In this document: positions 19,718-29,041 of the stretch, one piece after another
Position numbering within the stretch: position 1 is the first letter of the stretch
How the letters are laid out: every line of letters starts with the position of its first letter
From: Singulisphaera acidiphila DSM 18658
Lineage (GTDB): Bacteria; Planctomycetota; Planctomycetia; Isosphaerales; Isosphaeraceae
Direction of reading: 5' to 3'
Length of the DNA: 64,000 nucleotides
Assembly (NCBI RefSeq): GCF_000242455.2
Contig: NC_019892.1
Coordinates: 7,574,744-7,638,743, forward strand
The notes under the pieces: generated by a model
Told to the model about the DNA's origin: nothing
Database searches by the model: none
The model's input: only the letters and a program-made list of their open reading frames with translations
Made by a program: the position numbers and the translations under genes

Positions 19718-20761
19718 TCAATCTCGAATGCCATCGGGAAGGAGGTCTTCGAGCGGGACGACCTCGACCACGGCTTCCAGGTTGAGTGGGCCGTAGACGT
19801 GCGGGAACTTCTCCCATGAGTCGGGCGGGCTCTCCCACTTCAGCGGCGAGGTCAACTTGCTCGGCTCGATTCGCAGAACAACCAGCCTGGTCCGCCCTTT
19901 GTAGAACGTCTCGGCGACCCAGGGCAGTTGCTTCGGCGTCGAGCAGTGAATGAACCCCTCGGCCTCCAGAGTGTCGCCCCGATACCCGCCCCCGGCCTGA
20001 GCCTTCTCCCACTCCGATCGGGTTGTGATGCGCAGGATCTCGCCGGGCCTCGCTGTGGCCTTGCGCACCTGCTCGCCCGGCTCCAACTGCCGGATGCGGA
20101 CGTTCCGCCAGCGGACCTGATACGGCCCCTGGCCCTTGGCGATGCCATGGACCTGGAGGCCGATGAAGCCACTCTTGTCCACGTCGTCGGTGTAGTCAGA
20201 AGCGGCGACCCCGTTGACCCACGAGCGGTAGCGGTTGCCTTGCACGGCGATTTCGTAGCGGTTCCAATCCTCGTCCTTGAATGCCTTGCGGGCTTCAGCT
20301 CTCTTGGCGAAGTCATCGAGCCAGCGGGTGCGGCGGGCCTCGTCCCAGAAGTTGCCCGAGACGCCCTTTGCCGATTCAGCGATCTCGCACTGCGGGCCGT
20401 ACACGGTCCCGGCCTTGCGGACCTTTTTCGGGTCGGACTCCTGGGGCGTGTCCTTTTCGTACACATGGCTGCGGACCTGGACGCCCGAGTTCAGCCGGGG
20501 GTCGCACCTGACCTCCAGTTCGAGCACGAAGTCCTTGTAGTCCCCCCTGCAAAGGAACGTATTGGGACTGCCTTCCACGGTCGTGCCGACGATTGCCCCA
20601 TCCTCGACCTTGTACGAGGCGAACCCACCGTTGACCTTCCAGCCGTCGAGGGTCTTCCCGTCGAAGAGTGAGACCCAGCCCTCGTCGGCGAATACGGTCG
20701 TCGAGTAGAACGACAGGACCAAGGCGATGGCCGTGAGCACGGTTCTCGATCTCGAAGTCAT
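19718..20761 (-). CDS. secreted DUF1080-DUF952 fusion protein
   Basis: 347 residues. AGGAG 8 nt upstream fixes the start, giving a Sec signal (VLTAIALVLSFYSTTVFADE). Residues about 25-230 are a DUF1080 domain: WVSLFDGKTLDGWKVNGG, then FVLELEVRCDPRLNSGVQVR, GFIGLQVHGIAKGQGPYQVR and WRNVRIRQL. Residues about 245-340 are a DUF952 domain: EAEGFIHCSTPKQLPWVAET, LVVLRIEPSKLTSPLKWE, then FPHVYGPLNLEAVVEVVPLE. A carbohydrate-type beta-sandwich joined to DUF952 is unusual to me. A free-standing DUF952 gene occurs at 29.3 kb in the same window. Function unknown; probably periplasmic. Confidence 0.85.
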   Translation of the reverse strand: MTSRSRTVLTAIALVLSFYSTTVFADEGWVSLFDGKTLDGWKVNGGFASYKVEDGAIVGTTVEGSPNTFLCRGDYKDFVLELEVRCDPRLNSGVQVRSHVYEKDTPQESDPKKVRKAGTVYGPQCEIAESAKGVSGNFWDEARRTRWLDDFAKRAEARKAFKDEDWNRYEIAVQGNRYRSWVNGVAASDYTDDVDKSGFIGLQVHGIAKGQGPYQVRWRNVRIRQLEPGEQVRKATARPGEILRITTRSEWEKAQAGGGYRGDTLEAEGFIHCSTPKQLPWVAETFYKGRTRLVVLRIEPSKLTSPLKWESPPDSWEKFPHVYGPLNLEAVVEVVPLEDLLPDGIRD

Positions 20762-21189
20762 GGCAACTCTCCTGGATTCCCTCGGCATTGACATGGCTGG
20801 CGACAATCAAGTAAGTCAGGCTGGGCAGCAACGGACGTCTGGGCATCTGAGCAACCAACCTTAACGTTGAGCCTCATCCTAGACGACGACCAAGGGAAAT
20901 CGAGCATCTTGTTTCGAATCGCCATCCGCCCCTGCCGCTGGTGGTATCAGTTGGGGCTCGCCCCGACGCCGACAACATCTCGCTGCCGCCCCTAAATCTC
21001 AGTCCCCGCCCGCCAAGGCGGTTGCGATGGCACGAACTCTCGACCAAAAATGCCGAGGGTAAGGTTCCTCCCCTGGAAATCGGAGCCCGGCAACTGGAGA
21101 ATCAGTGCTTGCGGCGACGGCAAACCAGGCCAAGAAGGTTATGACCTGCGGTTATCAGTTCCATTCTCTTCCGGCATAGGACATTACTC
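20762..21189. other. intergenic between divergent genes
   Basis: About 430 bp carrying the upstream regions of the leftward DUF1080-DUF952 gene and the rightward DUF6678 gene. I see no coherent ORF, RNA or terminator. Confidence 0.4.
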
Positions 21190-21752: not shown

Positions 21753-22925
21753 CTAAATAGAAACTTTCAAATGGGAAAGTAGATCAGGCGGCCCTGGCTT
21801 TTGGGTAAGCCGAACCCTCGATCTGGAAAGGGTTTGCCTGTCCCAGCCAGGTGAAGACTCGATCCAATAATTCCTCCAGATCCTTGCACCGATGATTCCG
21901 GGTGATGTTCTCGTGCAAATGCCACCATACCCGCTCGATCGGGTTCAGGTCCGGGGAGTATGCGGGGAGCAGATGGACTTCGATTCGACCCTCGTGCTTC
22001 CAGAGGTACTGGATCACCTCCAGGCTGGTGTGGCTCCCCGCGTTGTCGCAGATCACGTGGATCTTGCGGTAGCGTCGCAGCCTGCGGCGCAGGTCGTCGA
22101 GGTGCTTGATGAACAACGCTCCGTCGCGCCCTTGCTTGGGGGCCGCCTCGGTGACGAACACCTGGCCGGTCCGCCAGTGGATTGAGCCGGAGATGTGCCG
22201 CTTCTTGTTCGTCCCGGGGGTCTCGACCTTCGCTTGTCGGCCTTTGAACATCCACATCCGGCCGATCTTTGGGTTGGTGTGAACCTCGACTTCGTCCTGC
22301 CAGACGGCCGTCTCGTCCTCGGGCAGCTCTTCCAGGAGCTTCCGCAGTTCAGCCAGCTTGACCTGCCTCTCGTCTTCGTCCGGCTTCAGGGTCGGCCGGG
22401 GTCGCCGGTACACCAGGTGGCCGCGATGGAGCCAGCGACGGACGGTCTCCCGGCTGACGCGAACGCCTTCTCTTTCTCGCAAGAGCAGGGCCAACAACAC
22501 ACACGACCAGCGACTGCGGAGGAAACCGAAGTCGCTGGGGGTCGTGGTGGTCACCCAGTTCACGAGGATGGCGACCCAGCCGAAGCCCAGCCGAAAGGGC
22601 CGGCCCCGTTTCCTCCCAGTCAACCCTTCGAGGCCCTCGGCCTGGAACCGCTTCAGCCAGCGGTCGACAGTGCGTGAGCTGCAGAAGAGCATGGACTCGA
22701 TGTTGTCCCAGGGATGGCCGTCAGCCAACAGGAGGATAATGTGGGCGCGAAAGCGGAGTTCGGGATCAGAATCCTTGCGGTAGATCGCCAAGAGTTCGTC
22801 GCGCTGAGTCGTCGAAAGGGAGAGCATGGGCGTCGTTAATGTTCGTCCGTGTTGAGTCGTCGGTGCAGTCCTCTGCATGAATTATAGGGGCAGGGCTACT
22901 TTCCCTTTGGCAGGGAACTATTTAG
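21753..22925 (-). mobile_element. complete IS630-family element
   Basis: About 1.17 kb. Ends are imperfect 30-bp inverted repeats: CTAAATAG...GGGAAAGTAG at 21753-21782 and its complement at 22896-22925. The outer cTA/TAg fits the TA target duplication of IS630/Tc1-type elements. One intact transposase gene lies between them. Confidence 0.88.
21784..22878 (-). CDS. IS630-family transposase, intact
   Basis: 364 residues, single frame. N-terminal winged-helix DNA-binding part: MLFCSSRTVDRWLKRFQAEG, then LEGLTGRKRGRP. Second HTH: VRVSRETVRRWLHRGHLVY. DDE core with Asp in AVWQDEVEVHTNPKIGRMW, Asp in IHVICDNAGSHTS and Glu in YSPDLNPIERVWWHLHENIT. All three catalytic residues are present and the terminal repeats are intact, so it may be mobile. 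A start at MLSLSTTQ (22827) is an alternative; neither has a clear ribosome site. Confidence 0.93.
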   Translation of the reverse strand: MQRTAPTTQHGRTLTTPMLSLSTTQRDELLAIYRKDSDPELRFRAHIILLLADGHPWDNIESMLFCSSRTVDRWLKRFQAEGLEGLTGRKRGRPFRLGFGWVAILVNWVTTTTPSDFGFLRSRWSCVLLALLLREREGVRVSRETVRRWLHRGHLVYRRPRPTLKPDEDERQVKLAELRKLLEELPEDETAVWQDEVEVHTNPKIGRMWMFKGRQAKVETPGTNKKRHISGSIHWRTGQVFVTEAAPKQGRDGALFIKHLDDLRRRLRRYRKIHVICDNAGSHTSLEVIQYLWKHEGRIEVHLLPAYSPDLNPIERVWWHLHENITRNHRCKDLEELLDRVFTWLGQANPFQIEGSAYPKARAA

Positions 22926-23491: not shown

Positions 23492-23680
23492 TTACGCCGG
23501 TTCTCTTTTCCATTGATACTCACAGGCCAACCCAAACAGACCTTCGGGGGCCTGCCATTCGCCATAGCAATATCCTCCCGCCTCGAAGGTGGCGAGGAAC
23601 GGGAGGATAGCGTCGATCTGCTTGATGGTAACTGGTGGTTCGGTCGGCAGAAGACCATCCGAACCAGTATCATTCTCCAT
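23492..23680 (-). CDS. small protein, weakly DUF6508-like
   Basis: 62 residues: PPVTIKQIDAILPFLATFEA, then GGYCYGEWQAPEGLFGLACEY. The 'ILxFLxxFExxGFxFGEW' style recalls DUF6508 proteins, but this one is shorter than the roughly 110 residues usual there and may be truncated. Its ATG lies 11 nt inside the end of the upstream repeat-protein gene, so the two are probably translationally coupled. Confidence 0.5.
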   Translation of the reverse strand: MENDTGSDGLLPTEPPVTIKQIDAILPFLATFEAGGYCYGEWQAPEGLFGLACEYQWKREPA

Positions 23681-24449
23681 GACTGCGAACCAGTAGACGA
23701 CGGGCTGCCCGTAGCGCCTCCTGCACCTCGGCGAAGCCTCCCAGGCTTTTGAGCCGGAACATCAGTTCGTCGATCTCGCCCTCAATCTCATCCAAGACCC
23801 GGCCATGGCCGTTATCCTGGCTCATCAACGTGGCAGTCGTCTTTGGCGAGGCGTGCTCACCTTTGGATTGCGAACGAGTCGCTTCGACTGCACTCGCCAC
23901 CCTCTCGGGTTTCGATGCATTGGGCGAGGACTTCAATTTGGGAACGGCGGCACTGATCTTACCAAAGGATCGCTTTCCGGTGTTGCCCTGTTCTCGCTTG
24001 ACCTTGTAGAAGATCGAATCGCTGATCGTCCCCTCGTTTCCGGCCGTCAACCACGCCCGGTTGATCGCCTTCACATTGGCCTTGGGGTCTTGCCCGAGCA
24101 TCTCTTGGACGAAAGCCGCCTTGCCCATGCCCGTGCTTCCCCCACGACTAGCGGTGGGCGATTGAACCTCTTTGGCCTTAGAAGCCCCCCTGCTCTTCGT
24201 CCCCTTTGGTGGCTTGCTCTGGGCCACTGAACCTGTGATTGCTTCGGAGGACCCTCCATTGGTCCCCATTTTGCCGGTCGACTTGAGCTTGGATCGGGTC
24301 TTGCCCACCAGGCTCTCGCTGACCGTCCCCTCGTTTCCCGCCGACTTCCACGCCTCATTGACGGTAGCGAGGGTGGCGTCAGGATTGACGGACAGGAACT
24401 CTGCGACGAAAGGTGTCTTGCCCTGATTGACGCCGGGACCGATCGCCAT
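23670..24449 (-). CDS. two-repeat protein with C-terminal helix
   Basis: 259 residues, no signal. Two ~47-residue repeats align closely. Repeat A (about 10-56): GKTPFVAEFLSVNPDATLAT, NEAWKSAGNEGTVSESLVGK. Repeat B (about 115-161): GKAAFVQEMLGQDPKANVKA, NRAWLTAGNEGTISDSIFYK. Each is followed by a basic, Ser/Lys/Gly-rich linker, giving a histone-tail-like composition. The last 45 residues form an acidic amphipathic helix (LDEIEGEIDELMFRLKSLGG). Each repeat could be a small helical bundle that binds nucleic acid or peptide; that is inference from composition. Start MAIGPGVNQ was chosen because repeat A follows directly. Coupled to the downstream gene. Confidence 0.7.
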   Translation of the reverse strand: MAIGPGVNQGKTPFVAEFLSVNPDATLATVNEAWKSAGNEGTVSESLVGKTRSKLKSTGKMGTNGGSSEAITGSVAQSKPPKGTKSRGASKAKEVQSPTASRGGSTGMGKAAFVQEMLGQDPKANVKAINRAWLTAGNEGTISDSIFYKVKREQGNTGKRSFGKISAAVPKLKSSPNASKPERVASAVEATRSQSKGEHASPKTTATLMSQDNGHGRVLDEIEGEIDELMFRLKSLGGFAEVQEALRAARRLLVRSHGE

Positions 24450-24571: not shown

Positions 24572-25132
24572 ATGGCAAAGAAAGCGAGAGGAACGAGGAC
24601 TAAACAAAGTAGAGGTGAGGAGGTCCAACCGACTTCCTTCGACCGGCTGTACCCCACCATCGCCCGTTGGATCACGCAGGAGGAGGGCTGGGTCGAGATC
24701 GGGGCCGACGATTACAGCCATTCGCTTGTCAGGGCTCTGTACGGGGGCGGAATGGTCTGGGAAGGGACTGATGTGTACGGGTCAATCGACGCAGCATTAC
24801 GAGCAATGGAGGCGGGTATCACCGCATGGCTGGAAAAGTATCGCCCCGAAGAACTACGTACTGTTGGAACCGGACCAGGAATCGTCGGAACTCAGACTCG
24901 ATCCGGTCAAGCCAGTCCGAAAGGAAACCTCAGAGGCATGAAACGAACCAAGGCAAAAGCTCCTCTTACCACCCTCGATCGATCACGACTGGGAAAGCGG
25001 AAACACACGCCGAAGGCCACGGCACAGTCGAAACCTGATGACCAAATGAAGGGAGATGCAGACTCATCGGTCCCACGACCCATCGCCGAGAAAGCCGTAA
25101 TCGCTCGAAATAACCAGTCTTGTGTCGCCTGA
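24572..25132 (+). CDS. hypothetical protein with small N-terminal domain
   Basis: 186 residues. A basic leader is followed by a well-formed domain at about 22-90: FDRLYPTIARWITQEEGWVE, IGADDYSHSLVRALYGGGM and an amphipathic helix DAALRAMEAGITAWLEKY. Similar 'GWIEIGxDEYSxSFVRALxxGGxVWEG' proteins are known to me as uncharacterised. The tail after residue 95 is Lys/Thr/Ser-rich with no domain and may be disordered or spurious, since a leftward gene overlaps its end. It is divergent from the repeat-protein gene, about 120 bp apart. Confidence 0.6.
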   Translation: MAKKARGTRTKQSRGEEVQPTSFDRLYPTIARWITQEEGWVEIGADDYSHSLVRALYGGGMVWEGTDVYGSIDAALRAMEAGITAWLEKYRPEELRTVGTGPGIVGTQTRSGQASPKGNLRGMKRTKAKAPLTTLDRSRLGKRKHTPKATAQSKPDDQMKGDADSSVPRPIAEKAVIARNNQSCVA

Positions 25133-26126: not shown

Positions 26127-27459
26127 TCATGCGGCCCGCGCCTTGTGGAGGGATTGGGTCGTTGCCGAGCGGCCGTCTCCTTGACGTTCCCGTTGCAGGT
26201 CCAACGCCAACCTGCCCTCGATCCCGCGTTTCGTCCGCACCCGATAGACCGACTTCTGCATCTTCCGATAACGCCGGTTGCCTCGCTCCACCGCATTCGA
26301 CGTCGCTCCCAGCAGCCGCTCATCCAGGAACACCAGCGCCTTCTCCAGGCCCGGCGTCTGCAACTTCTTCAGCGCCTCGCGCAAGCGACCGAATCGACGC
26401 AACCGCGCCCGCAGCCGCGCCAGCTTGGCTAACGCCGTGGCCAGGCGACAGCGCCGGTCGAAGAGGCGGTAGACCTCGTCCATCAGGTCCCAGAGCGTGC
26501 GGAGTTGCGGCTGCCCGCGACTGATCCGCCGCAGCGTCGCCCGCTCCGACGCGTTGAGCCGACGCTTGACGAACAGGTACCGATGCTCGAACAGCGCACC
26601 GACCTTAGACTCGATCCGCTTCTTGAGCCGCACCGCGCGTCTCGCGGCTGCGGTACCGGGGCGGCCGCGACCGACCTTGGGGGCAGCGGCCTTCAGTCCT
26701 TTGCGCACCTTGGCCACGGCGGAGAGGACCGCATTGGTAATCTCGCGGAGCACGTGGAATGTGTAGACCTGATGGGGGATCGCGCCGAAGACGGTGGCGA
26801 TCGGCTCCGGGTAGAGCGACGAACCATCGGTGGTGATCCCGCGGAGGGTCAACCCGCGCGCCTGCAACGCCTTGTGGAATCGGCGGAAAAACCTCTCGAT
26901 GTCCTTGTGCTTCGGGGCACCACTCAGGACGTGGTAGGAGAGCCGCTTGAAGGTGTGGTTATCGACGATCGAGAGGATGCAGAACGGCCCGTCATACAGC
27001 TCGTCGGCCGCGATGTAACCCGAGAAGTCGGCCAGGGCCCAGTCGAGATGAGTGGTGTGGGCGGCTCGCGCCGCCTTTTTCCCCCCCGGCCTCGACCCAA
27101 TTCTGGATCGTGGCATAGGGGACGAAGACGCGGTGGTCGCGCCACAAGGTCCAGCCCGCGGTGCGATAAGGGAGGCCGTCCTCGACGACCAGTCGGACCG
27201 CGGTGTCGACGCCCCGGCGCGTGTAGTGGCTCCCCGGTTCGGCCAGGTCGGCCATGTTGGCGTTGAAGTACTTGCGACAGCGGGTGCAGTAGTGCTGGGA
27301 GTAGAGCACGACGATGTCGCGCGGTCGTCCCGTGAGGGGAGCGCCGAGGTCGTGGAGGGAGCGACGCGCCCTGCGATCGCGGTAGGAACTGTGTCCACAA
27401 TGAGGACAGGGCCGCCGGCGGTAATTGCGACTGCGGAGACTGAGATTGGGCTTAGGCAA
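26127..27459 (-). pseudogene. zinc-ribbon DDE transposase, frameshifted
   Basis: Read leftward from 27459, the first frame gives a zinc ribbon (CPHCGHSSYRDRRARR...CTRCRKYF) and an HTH-like part ending TIQNWVEAGG. The product then continues only in the +1 frame: HTTHLDWALADFSGYIAADE, GITTDGSSLYPEP and AVERGNRRYRKMQKSVYRVR, giving a plausible Asp-Asp-Glu set. The shift falls on a G7-A5 run at about 27080-27092, so the cause is either an indel or slippage at that tract. Total length would be about 440 residues. The layout resembles ISL3/ISNCY-type transposases. Terminal repeats were not found. Confidence 0.75.
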
Positions 27460-27800
27460 GTCCTCGATGCGAGTGATGCCCTCGATGGGGTCGGGTCGGT
27501 ATTCGCCGGGCCCTGGTATGACAAACCTCCTGGAAGAGTCCTACCAGGCAATACGTCAGGCGATGGGGTTTTGTTCATCGAATCCGCCCGGTAATCGTGC
27601 TATAGACTCAAAAATGTGGCCTATTCGTTGCGAGAGAACGTCATCAAAAGCGATTCGATAAATGCTATATATAATTCAAACATTTAATTTCGTGACACTT
27701 TCGACTATCCGACAGAAAACGACACAGCCCAAGGTCTTCCGAGGGGAATATCCTGGGCTGGGAGTGCTATGCCGAAAAATATTTCAGACATGCTTATATA
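27460..27800. other. AT-rich intergenic stretch
   Basis: About 340 bp. From 27600 onward G+C falls clearly below that of the window, with tracts such as TATATAATTC. No coherent gene. This may be the ragged left edge of transferred DNA that contains the following broken gene. Confidence 0.4.
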
Positions 27801-29041
27801 ATGTGCCATGCCAAAAATTCAAAAAATCCCATTTGTTCTTTTATCAGAAAATTAATCAGCCCCTACGGGTACGGCTCGAAAGACGACTTCGGCTATCGAC
27901 GACCCACTAATAAGGCTCTCGTCAACGATTACAATCGCAGGAGCTATATCCGGGGACTGACCAACGCCCAGATGTGCGATCACTTCGACGGGGAGAGCAC
28001 GTTCTACTTCTGGGCCGACGGACGCATCAAGACTCACAAGTCATTAATATGCATTAATATTTACAACAACAATTTTGTCAGTCTGAACGCCGCTCTGGCA
28101 TTTGCCAAGCACCTTCGGGACCGTTTCTTCCCCGATCTCTACTTCGAGCCGTCCACGGGCGGCAAGGGCGTCCACGGCTACGTGATCATCGACAAGCGGG
28201 GTTCGGCGACGAGCGGCTCCACGGCCTCTGCAAGATGCTCGACCGGTCACTCAAGACGATCCACAGGCGATGGCAGGCCCAAAATCCGGATCAAGTCGTC
28301 GAGGGAGTTGAGATCAAGGGTCATCCGCCCCGGATCACTTGGTCCAGGGACGGCCAGATGAACGACCTGATCTCGGGGCAGTTCGCCAAATTGCCCAGGG
28401 AGATGTTGTCCAAGTTCGAGGAGTTCGAGAAGACGACCGTCCAGGGCGATCGCCAGATCAGCCAACTCTCGCTTCAGTACAAAGAGGACACGATTGTCTT
28501 GGACGTACCTACCGCCCTGCCTCGCAAGCCGTCTTCCTCGCTGACCGGTTGCGTGGTCAAGCAGACCAACCTCGATCAGTTCGATGCTTACAGGAATTTT
28601 GCCCGAAGGATTATCCCCAGCTCGCTCAAGACCACGGGTAGAGAAGTTGCCACTGACGACGACATGGCCGTTCTCCTGATTATTTTGGAAGCCTGCACCA
28701 ACAACATGAATGCTGATAGATCGATGCCGACGGCCCGCATCCGTCAGAACTGGGAAATTCTCTTCGCCAACACCGACGTCATGCGTCCCTGGTGTCCACG
28801 CAGCTATACAGCATTACGAGACAGATTGTCCGAAAAGGACTACATCGACTGGGGCGACACCCATTACTTACCCGGTTCGATGAGCCCAGATGGCAAGGGT
28901 AAGACGGCCAGGCGGAGGGCGTCGGAGGCGTTGATGAACTTGTTGGACAACGAGAAACGGCGATTGCAGAGCGGTAAGGCTGTTGTCGAGCCGAAAATGC
29001 CTGATGACGAACGTGTTTTTGCGGTGGCGTTTCTGGAATAA
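27801..29041 (+). pseudogene. primase/polymerase-like protein, frameshifted
   Basis: The first frame (to about 28200) contains STFYFWADGRIKTHKSLICI, then FAKHLRDRFFPDLYFEPSTG and GKGVHGYVIIDKRG. The reading then continues in another frame as GFGDERLHGLCKMLDRSLKT through ...PDDERVFAVAFLE. Adding one base in the G-run near 28200 joins them (KRGFGDERL), so a single-base deletion broke the gene. STGGKGVHGY matches the GG(K/R)GxH motif of archaeo-eukaryotic primase-like domains. Where the metal-binding hDhD motif should lie, the text is ICINIYNNN, so both acidic residues look replaced. Further in-frame-like sequence (DKIILLPAEEPKPSWFIGL) at 29070-29190 may be the original C-terminus after a second shift. 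Confidence 0.6.

Follow-up and report, generated by a model that had tools for sequence, protein, structure and literature searches.

In the silencer Rok, oligomerization is N-terminal and DNA is bound by a winged-helix domain with a basic tail, the region between the two being less conserved (PMC6212790). The layout extends in outline to H-NS, Lsr2 and MvaT, each of which combines an oligomerization part and a small DNA-binding domain with a middle that is less conserved. In planctomycetes, bead-like particles of unknown identity have been described on the DNA of Gemmata obscuriglobus, for which no histone homologue was found and two HU sequences were reported (PMC3440768). The literature on planctomycete AT-hook and nucleoid-associated proteins that we covered, mostly that outside subscription journals, held no description of the module family considered here.

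This family is represented in Singulisphaera acidiphila DSM 18658 by P0001, a 259-aa protein whose duplication, family, predicted fold and architecture we establish here. It has the same kinds of part as the Rok-type silencers, the oligomerization part being putative, but differs from them in their order, with two candidate DNA-binding modules first and the helical part last. By layout alone, Rok would be the nearest functional analogy to P0001. Single parts of the protein may also recall the N-terminal domain of ArgR (PF01316), the PAX5/PAX6 paired domain, with its two linked helix-turn-helix (HTH) subdomains, and the pRiA4b ORF-3-like proteins (PF07929).

The gene was found in a window of 64,000 nucleotides, by which we mean the whole stretch of DNA that was analyzed (NC_019892.1, positions 7,574,744 to 7,638,743). 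Its start is the ATG at 24449, which is credible because a GGAG motif lies 8 nt upstream and because the relative in G033, a genome of another genus, begins likewise. That relative (L004) is co-linear with P0001 and 47% identical to it over residues 1-258. The features of the locus are as follows:

23670..24449, minus strand: P0001 gene, encoding the 259-aa tandem-module protein (translation and the 47%-identical relative in G033)
24270..24422, minus strand: module 1, residues 10-60 (predicted helices 11-21, 27-36 and 45-60)
24132..24269, minus strand: linker 1, residues 61-106, Lys/Ser-rich, net charge +5 (block pLDDT 47-65, low)
23979..24131, minus strand: module 2, residues 107-157 (predicted helices 110-120, 126-135 and 144-153)
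23808..23978, minus strand: linker 2, residues 158-214, net charge +6 (pLDDT mostly 45-54, low)
23673..23807, minus strand: C-terminal helical hairpin, residues 215-259, net charge −2 (helices 215-236 and 240-258)
23492..23680, minus strand: 62-aa ORF, most simply an N-terminal DUF6508 remnant (DUF6508 homology within 23531-23635)

A sequence-only reading of this DNA had proposed a duplicated module with basic linkers, closed by an acidic helix. The duplication is borne out: between the two modules of P0001, about 50 residues each, there is 45% identity in an ungapped alignment (E 4e-14). Comparing one half of the protein with the other gave a score of 135, which none of 5000 shuffles equalled, the best reaching 79. 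The linkers, 46 and 57 residues long, are indeed basic in P0001, but this does not hold as a constant of the family, since the protein has a pI of 10.0 and its closest relative, the one in G033, a pI of 5.9. Judged from the sequences, basic linkers are a variable rather than a fixed trait. The closing helix is predicted to be a two-helix hairpin, of net charge −2.

Neither Pfam nor NCBIfam gave a match to P0001 up to E 1, which agrees with the view that the module has no named domain, and in 22 relatives, too, no Pfam model covered it. With P0001 as query, 23 of the 45 genomes examined from its family gave matches, its own included; the module profile A2 again detected 23, and its 54 module matches include one that is partial. 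Two in-frame module matches were found with A2 in three genes only among these 45 genomes, namely those of S. acidiphila (G000), G033 and G003. In most of the aligned relatives a single module is followed by a linker and by the hairpin seen in P0001, these single-module proteins being 128-172 residues long, and the hairpin is conserved across the 22 aligned subfamily proteins. That alignment (A1) represents 22 of 32 loci, with start codons of our own choice; it omits L003 (a false match), L031 (the same gene as L010) and L014, L016, L018, L021 and L030 (close to kept rows), while the fusion proteins L002, L024 and L025 were placed in A2 only. The 27 rows of A2 leave out L027 and the same five close loci.

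In module identities computed per 51 positions, like-position modules of G000 and G033 are 49% (module 1) and 59% (module 2) identical and crosswise pairs 33-37%. Because like-position modules match better than crosswise ones, the sequences suggest that the tandem duplication predates the split of G000 and G033. A simple history is complicated by module 1 of G000, which is nearer to module 1 of G003 (55%) than to that of G033. The two modules of G003 are 71% identical to each other, and the sequences suggest that its duplication was separate or has been homogenized.

The module also occurs in another setting. In L002 (859-1722), a second gene of the S. acidiphila genome, it stands N-terminal to a PRiA4_ORF3 domain (Pfam E 7.4e-64), and L024, L025 and L060 look by eye like fusions of this type. 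P0001 shares this module with such pRiA4b ORF-3-like proteins and differs from them in having no PRiA4_ORF3 match in Pfam. Plasmids and phages yielded no match by tblastn, viral contigs no relative of the A3 subgroup in a search with two short patterns only, and the PHROGs collection weak matches to the 22 relatives (best E 0.012). Three candidates were dropped, these being L003 (E 0.8, in-frame stops), a sigma-factor-like ORF in L055 that matched solely via its C-terminal tail, and L105, from a Bacteroidia MAG, with a match of 17 residues only.

By profile comparison, the P0001 module is homologous to a module family found across the planctomycete class. We represented the latter by A4, a profile of 21 proteins from the 30 loci L063-L092, which omits L085 (another architecture) and L074, and also L069, L073, L077, L080, L083, L086 and L090 to keep the set short. 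With hhalign, A4 aligned to the Isosphaeraceae-type profile over its full length, module and hairpin, at E 1.7e-11 and to the subfamily module alone at E 1.3e-10, both single-comparison E-values. For the module profiles the score is 51, where 150 column shuffles reached 15.4 at most and reversal gave 6.9. On its own the hairpin scores 20.0 (maximum 16.5 in 150 shuffles, 16.1 reversed), which is weak; in the full-length profile alignment, hairpin and module come in the same order. On the local protein set, the A4 HMM detected P0001 at 6.9e-8 together with 18 of the 22 subfamily proteins, the reciprocal search recovered 16 of the 21 class-wide members, and neither search matched any of 43 reversed proteins.

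Within the class, A4 matches at least 148 of the 297 genomes sampled, with at least nine matches in the richest genome. Across 392 genomes of the phylum, at least 37 of which belong to the class, there are at least 19 matches, 17 within the class (own genome included) and two outside it. These counts are lower bounds because few candidates per genome were scored, up to 15 in the former search and up to 12 in the latter. In the S. acidiphila genome, where 12-15 of 72 candidates were scored, the match reported genome-wide is C1:9279046 (L109) and not P0001; L109 (954-1379) reads as a further divergent class-type paralogue in this genome, with an A4 match of 1.6e-5 genome-wide. Reading of G047 (three genes), G483 and G585 showed tandem members that have GRP cores, and the paired layout therefore recurs. 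A protein from another family of the class (L036/L063; module profile E 7.9e-5) likewise has two modules, basic linkers and a hairpin-like C-terminal stretch. P0001 and its relatives are an uncatalogued planctomycete family, whose fold is probably known.

Two further arrangements were noticed during this survey. One genome of the phylum, G396, has ten weak module matches (L035, L038, L040-L047) in proteins that read as a charged N-terminal helix followed by an HTH-like end; a GRP core was read by eye in 8 of the 10, and from their sequences these proteins may represent a second layout of silencer-like proteins. In L085, a class-type module starts a 469-aa frame; by eye, the C-terminal part of this frame resembles a nucleotide-processing effector domain.

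In the AlphaFold2 model of P0001 each module forms three helices, mostly with block pLDDT above 90; the linkers are of low confidence and the C-terminus has two helices. The first structural neighbor of a single module is the PAX6 paired domain (Z 5.9, rmsd 2.8 over 53 residues) and the second is PAX5 (Z 5.3); cullin winged-helix domains follow as third and fourth (Z 5.2 and 4.9), ahead of every bacterial regulator. LmrR/PadR, replication terminator protein, Lrp types and linker histone rank lower, and a dehydrogenase subunit scores Z 4.1. All of these Z scores are below 6, a level at which the arrangement may be shared, and Foldseek gave no significant fold match to the module (E of 2.4 or above). 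Absence of a family from such lists does not exclude that family. For the tandem model as a whole, PAX5 and PAX6 again head the neighbor list, with a chain-order alignment across both halves (Z 5.0 and 4.9); the rmsd exceeds 13, so this is no rigid-body superposition. P0001 differs from the paired domains in having only about 15% identity, a structural match below significance, and low-confidence linkers of 46 and 57 residues. Ribosome entries occur among the weak fold matches, and a viral fold library gave no match at E 0.001 or below.

Sequence profiles of the class-wide family point, weakly, in a similar direction. In Pfam searches of the 22 subfamily members there was no recurring HTH match (HTH_32 in 1 of 22, PIN_3 in 2 of 22), and PDB searches with two subfamily profiles returned no credible relative. 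Among the 21 class-wide members, weak HTH matches recur: Arg_repressor (PF01316) in six (best E 0.01), the Tc3 transposase HTH in five (best E 4.9e-4) and HTH_32 in three, as do the non-HTH models RHH_1 (four) and T4_MRH (three). In one class member the Arg_repressor match scores 15.2, below the curated cut-off of 27 bits. The second row of the A4 search against the PDB is the ArgR DNA-binding domain (2p5k, E 0.0093), matched over the module, as are RpoN, Sleeping Beauty and EspR, each individually weak; the top row is DHP1, a designed protein, matched over the hairpin. P0001 is unlike ArgR in that it has no PF01316 match and in that tandem copies, linkers and a hairpin stand in place of the ligand-binding domain. 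In the module alignment, position 46 is Lys or Arg in all 27 rows and position 44 in 19 of 27, and this conserved Lys/Arg sits in helix 3, where module 1 of P0001 has K50 and R52. On profile and model evidence that is weak but repeated, the module probably has a common HTH fold. Since both kinds of evidence point, weakly and repeatedly, to an HTH-like domain, binding of nucleic acid by the modules is a reasonable guess.

The linkers of several relatives carry a further motif. A GRP-type AT-hook-like core is absent from P0001, whose linkers are only Lys/Ser-rich. Such cores are present in 8 of the 22 aligned subfamily proteins, against a mean of 1.3 and a maximum of 6 in 1000 shuffles, and in 5 of the 21 class-wide proteins, against a shuffled mean of 0.36, the pattern having been chosen after the sequences had been viewed. 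GRP cores were read by eye in 5 of 5 tandem proteins taken from other lineages, and a subgroup of five members has an invariant G-K-x-x-G-R-K-P-K-S block in its linker.

We consider it fairly probable, on sequence and model grounds, that P0001 is a multivalent DNA-binding oligomer, be it a nucleoid-associated or silencing protein or a broad regulator. Its DNA contact, oligomerization and cellular role are what we infer from the architecture. Each three-helix HTH-like module would contact DNA via helix 3, with its conserved Lys/Arg; the flexible linkers between and after the modules would add non-specific or minor-groove contacts; and the C-terminal hairpin would join subunits. With DNA-binding modules, linkers and a joining hairpin combined in this way, we propose that one oligomer would hold several DNA segments. 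The DUF6508 fragment downstream would have no part in this function.

That fragment had been read as a small second gene whose translational coupling to P0001 suggested a functional pair. The overlap is real: the ATG of the 62-aa ORF begins at 23680 and the TGA of P0001 ends at 23670, so that the reading frames share 11 nt. The ORF itself looks like a remnant rather than an intact gene. No Shine-Dalgarno-like sequence was seen in the 30 nt before its ATG, and it has no match of its own in Pfam. It is 61% identical over 33 positions to L049 and 64% over 25 positions to L050, proteins of 132 and 144 aa that are clear DUF6508 (PF20118) members (Pfam E 1.3e-38 and 6.2e-41). It thus retains about 33 of the roughly 129 residues of the domain; for the remainder the window gave no significant match (best other E 0.24). 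Among the 45 family genomes, full-length DUF6508 was found in two: G032, which has no module match, and G022, which has the module on contig C93 but DUF6508 on C101. The pair was therefore found in none of the 45, and by the sequence-only reading's own criterion, loss of the pair in relatives, the pairing claim is refuted within these genomes. Because the match is partial, the window shows no significant match to the remainder and no pair was found in these genomes, the ORF is most simply, from its sequence, an N-terminal DUF6508 remnant lying by chance at the end of the gene. That P0001 and this ORF form a two-gene functional unit, as the overlap might suggest, is barely conceivable in view of the fragment's length and the missing pair.

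The surroundings of the gene were also compared. P0001 sits between two insertion-element genes. The IS630-type element (21753-22925) carries a DDE_3 transposase (21784-22878) and terminal inverted repeats of 30 nt that are 77% complementary. It lies farther downstream and does not abut the DUF6508 remnant; its right end has exact matches of 46-48 nt at 11 other genome sites. A second transposase ORF (26127-27578) matches DDE_Tnp_ISL3 at 30.1 against a cut-off of 23 bits. A single ORF at 19718-20806 combines a 3-keto-disaccharide hydrolase domain with a DUF952 domain and, in the neighborhood comparison, has a 21% identity match in L058. The divergent upstream gene (24572-25132), which has no match in Pfam or NCBIfam, was rejected as a conserved partner: matches occur in 5 of 45 genomes (own included), three of the four others have stops in frame, and the contig that carries the sole open one (G016:C39) has no module match.

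Across the 24 loci compared, apart from the module gene, the frames that overlap it and the L058 match, one other gene of the window has a homologue near a module gene, and in G040 only. ORFs 27801-28361 and 28235-29041 match successive parts (46% and 35% identity) of a single 479-aa ORF of G040 (L052, 3504-4943), itself without a Pfam family, and 27801-29041 is apparently, from this alignment, one gene split over two frames. In G040 some 0.4 kb separate the 479-aa ORF from a module gene downstream of it; in G000 the split counterpart is about 3.4 kb away. We rejected this gene as a partner as well: it occurs in 10 of 45 genomes and lies within 4 kb of a module gene only in G000 and G040, the other eight having it on other contigs or without a module match. 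Its presence near module genes leaves our weighing of the readings unchanged.

A narrower role can be drawn from the same architecture, in which P0001 would be a sequence-specific regulator of few targets and not a chromosome-wide architectural protein. The two HTH modules would read a bipartite operator, the halves acting as in a paired domain, and the hairpin would dimerize. The chain-order alignment to the bipartite PAX5/PAX6 domains speaks for such a protein, as do the patchy distribution among family genomes and the way in which the two modules have stayed distinct between G000 and G033. Set against this, no gene generally recurs beside module genes in the 24 loci, and the basic linkers are long and of low confidence, with AT-hook-like cores in relatives. 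Long basic linkers and AT-hook-like cores are more typical of low-specificity binders, and we regard the regulator of few targets as rather unlikely. Small basic modules could also bind RNA, making P0001 an RNA-binding or ribosome-associated protein. The ribosome entries among the weak fold matches point that way, and so do the single-module genes of L093, L095 and L096, which share their gene order and lie a few kb away from ORFs that look by eye like IF-2 and RbfA. However, HTH and winged-helix proteins predominate in the profile and fold lists and relatives carry AT-hook-like cores, which makes an RNA-binding role highly improbable. The multivalent DNA-binding oligomer remains the reading that we favor.

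It is possible, if doubtful, that this reading extends to the family as a whole, as a largely class-specific chromosome-organizing family whose members combine a single or double HTH module with AT-hook or basic linkers and with an oligomerizing hairpin, acting in nucleoid condensation or in the silencing of foreign DNA. No Pfam or NCBIfam model matches the module, yet the wider family occurs in about half or more of the class genomes sampled. The main interest of the family lies here, because planctomycete nucleoid proteins are little known (PMC3440768) and because the family is frequent in the class. As a common candidate DNA-binding family, it offers named proteins to test for the DNA-bound particles of planctomycetes. 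If the proposal is true, these proteins would be chromosome organizers in bacteria where little beyond HU-like proteins has been proposed.
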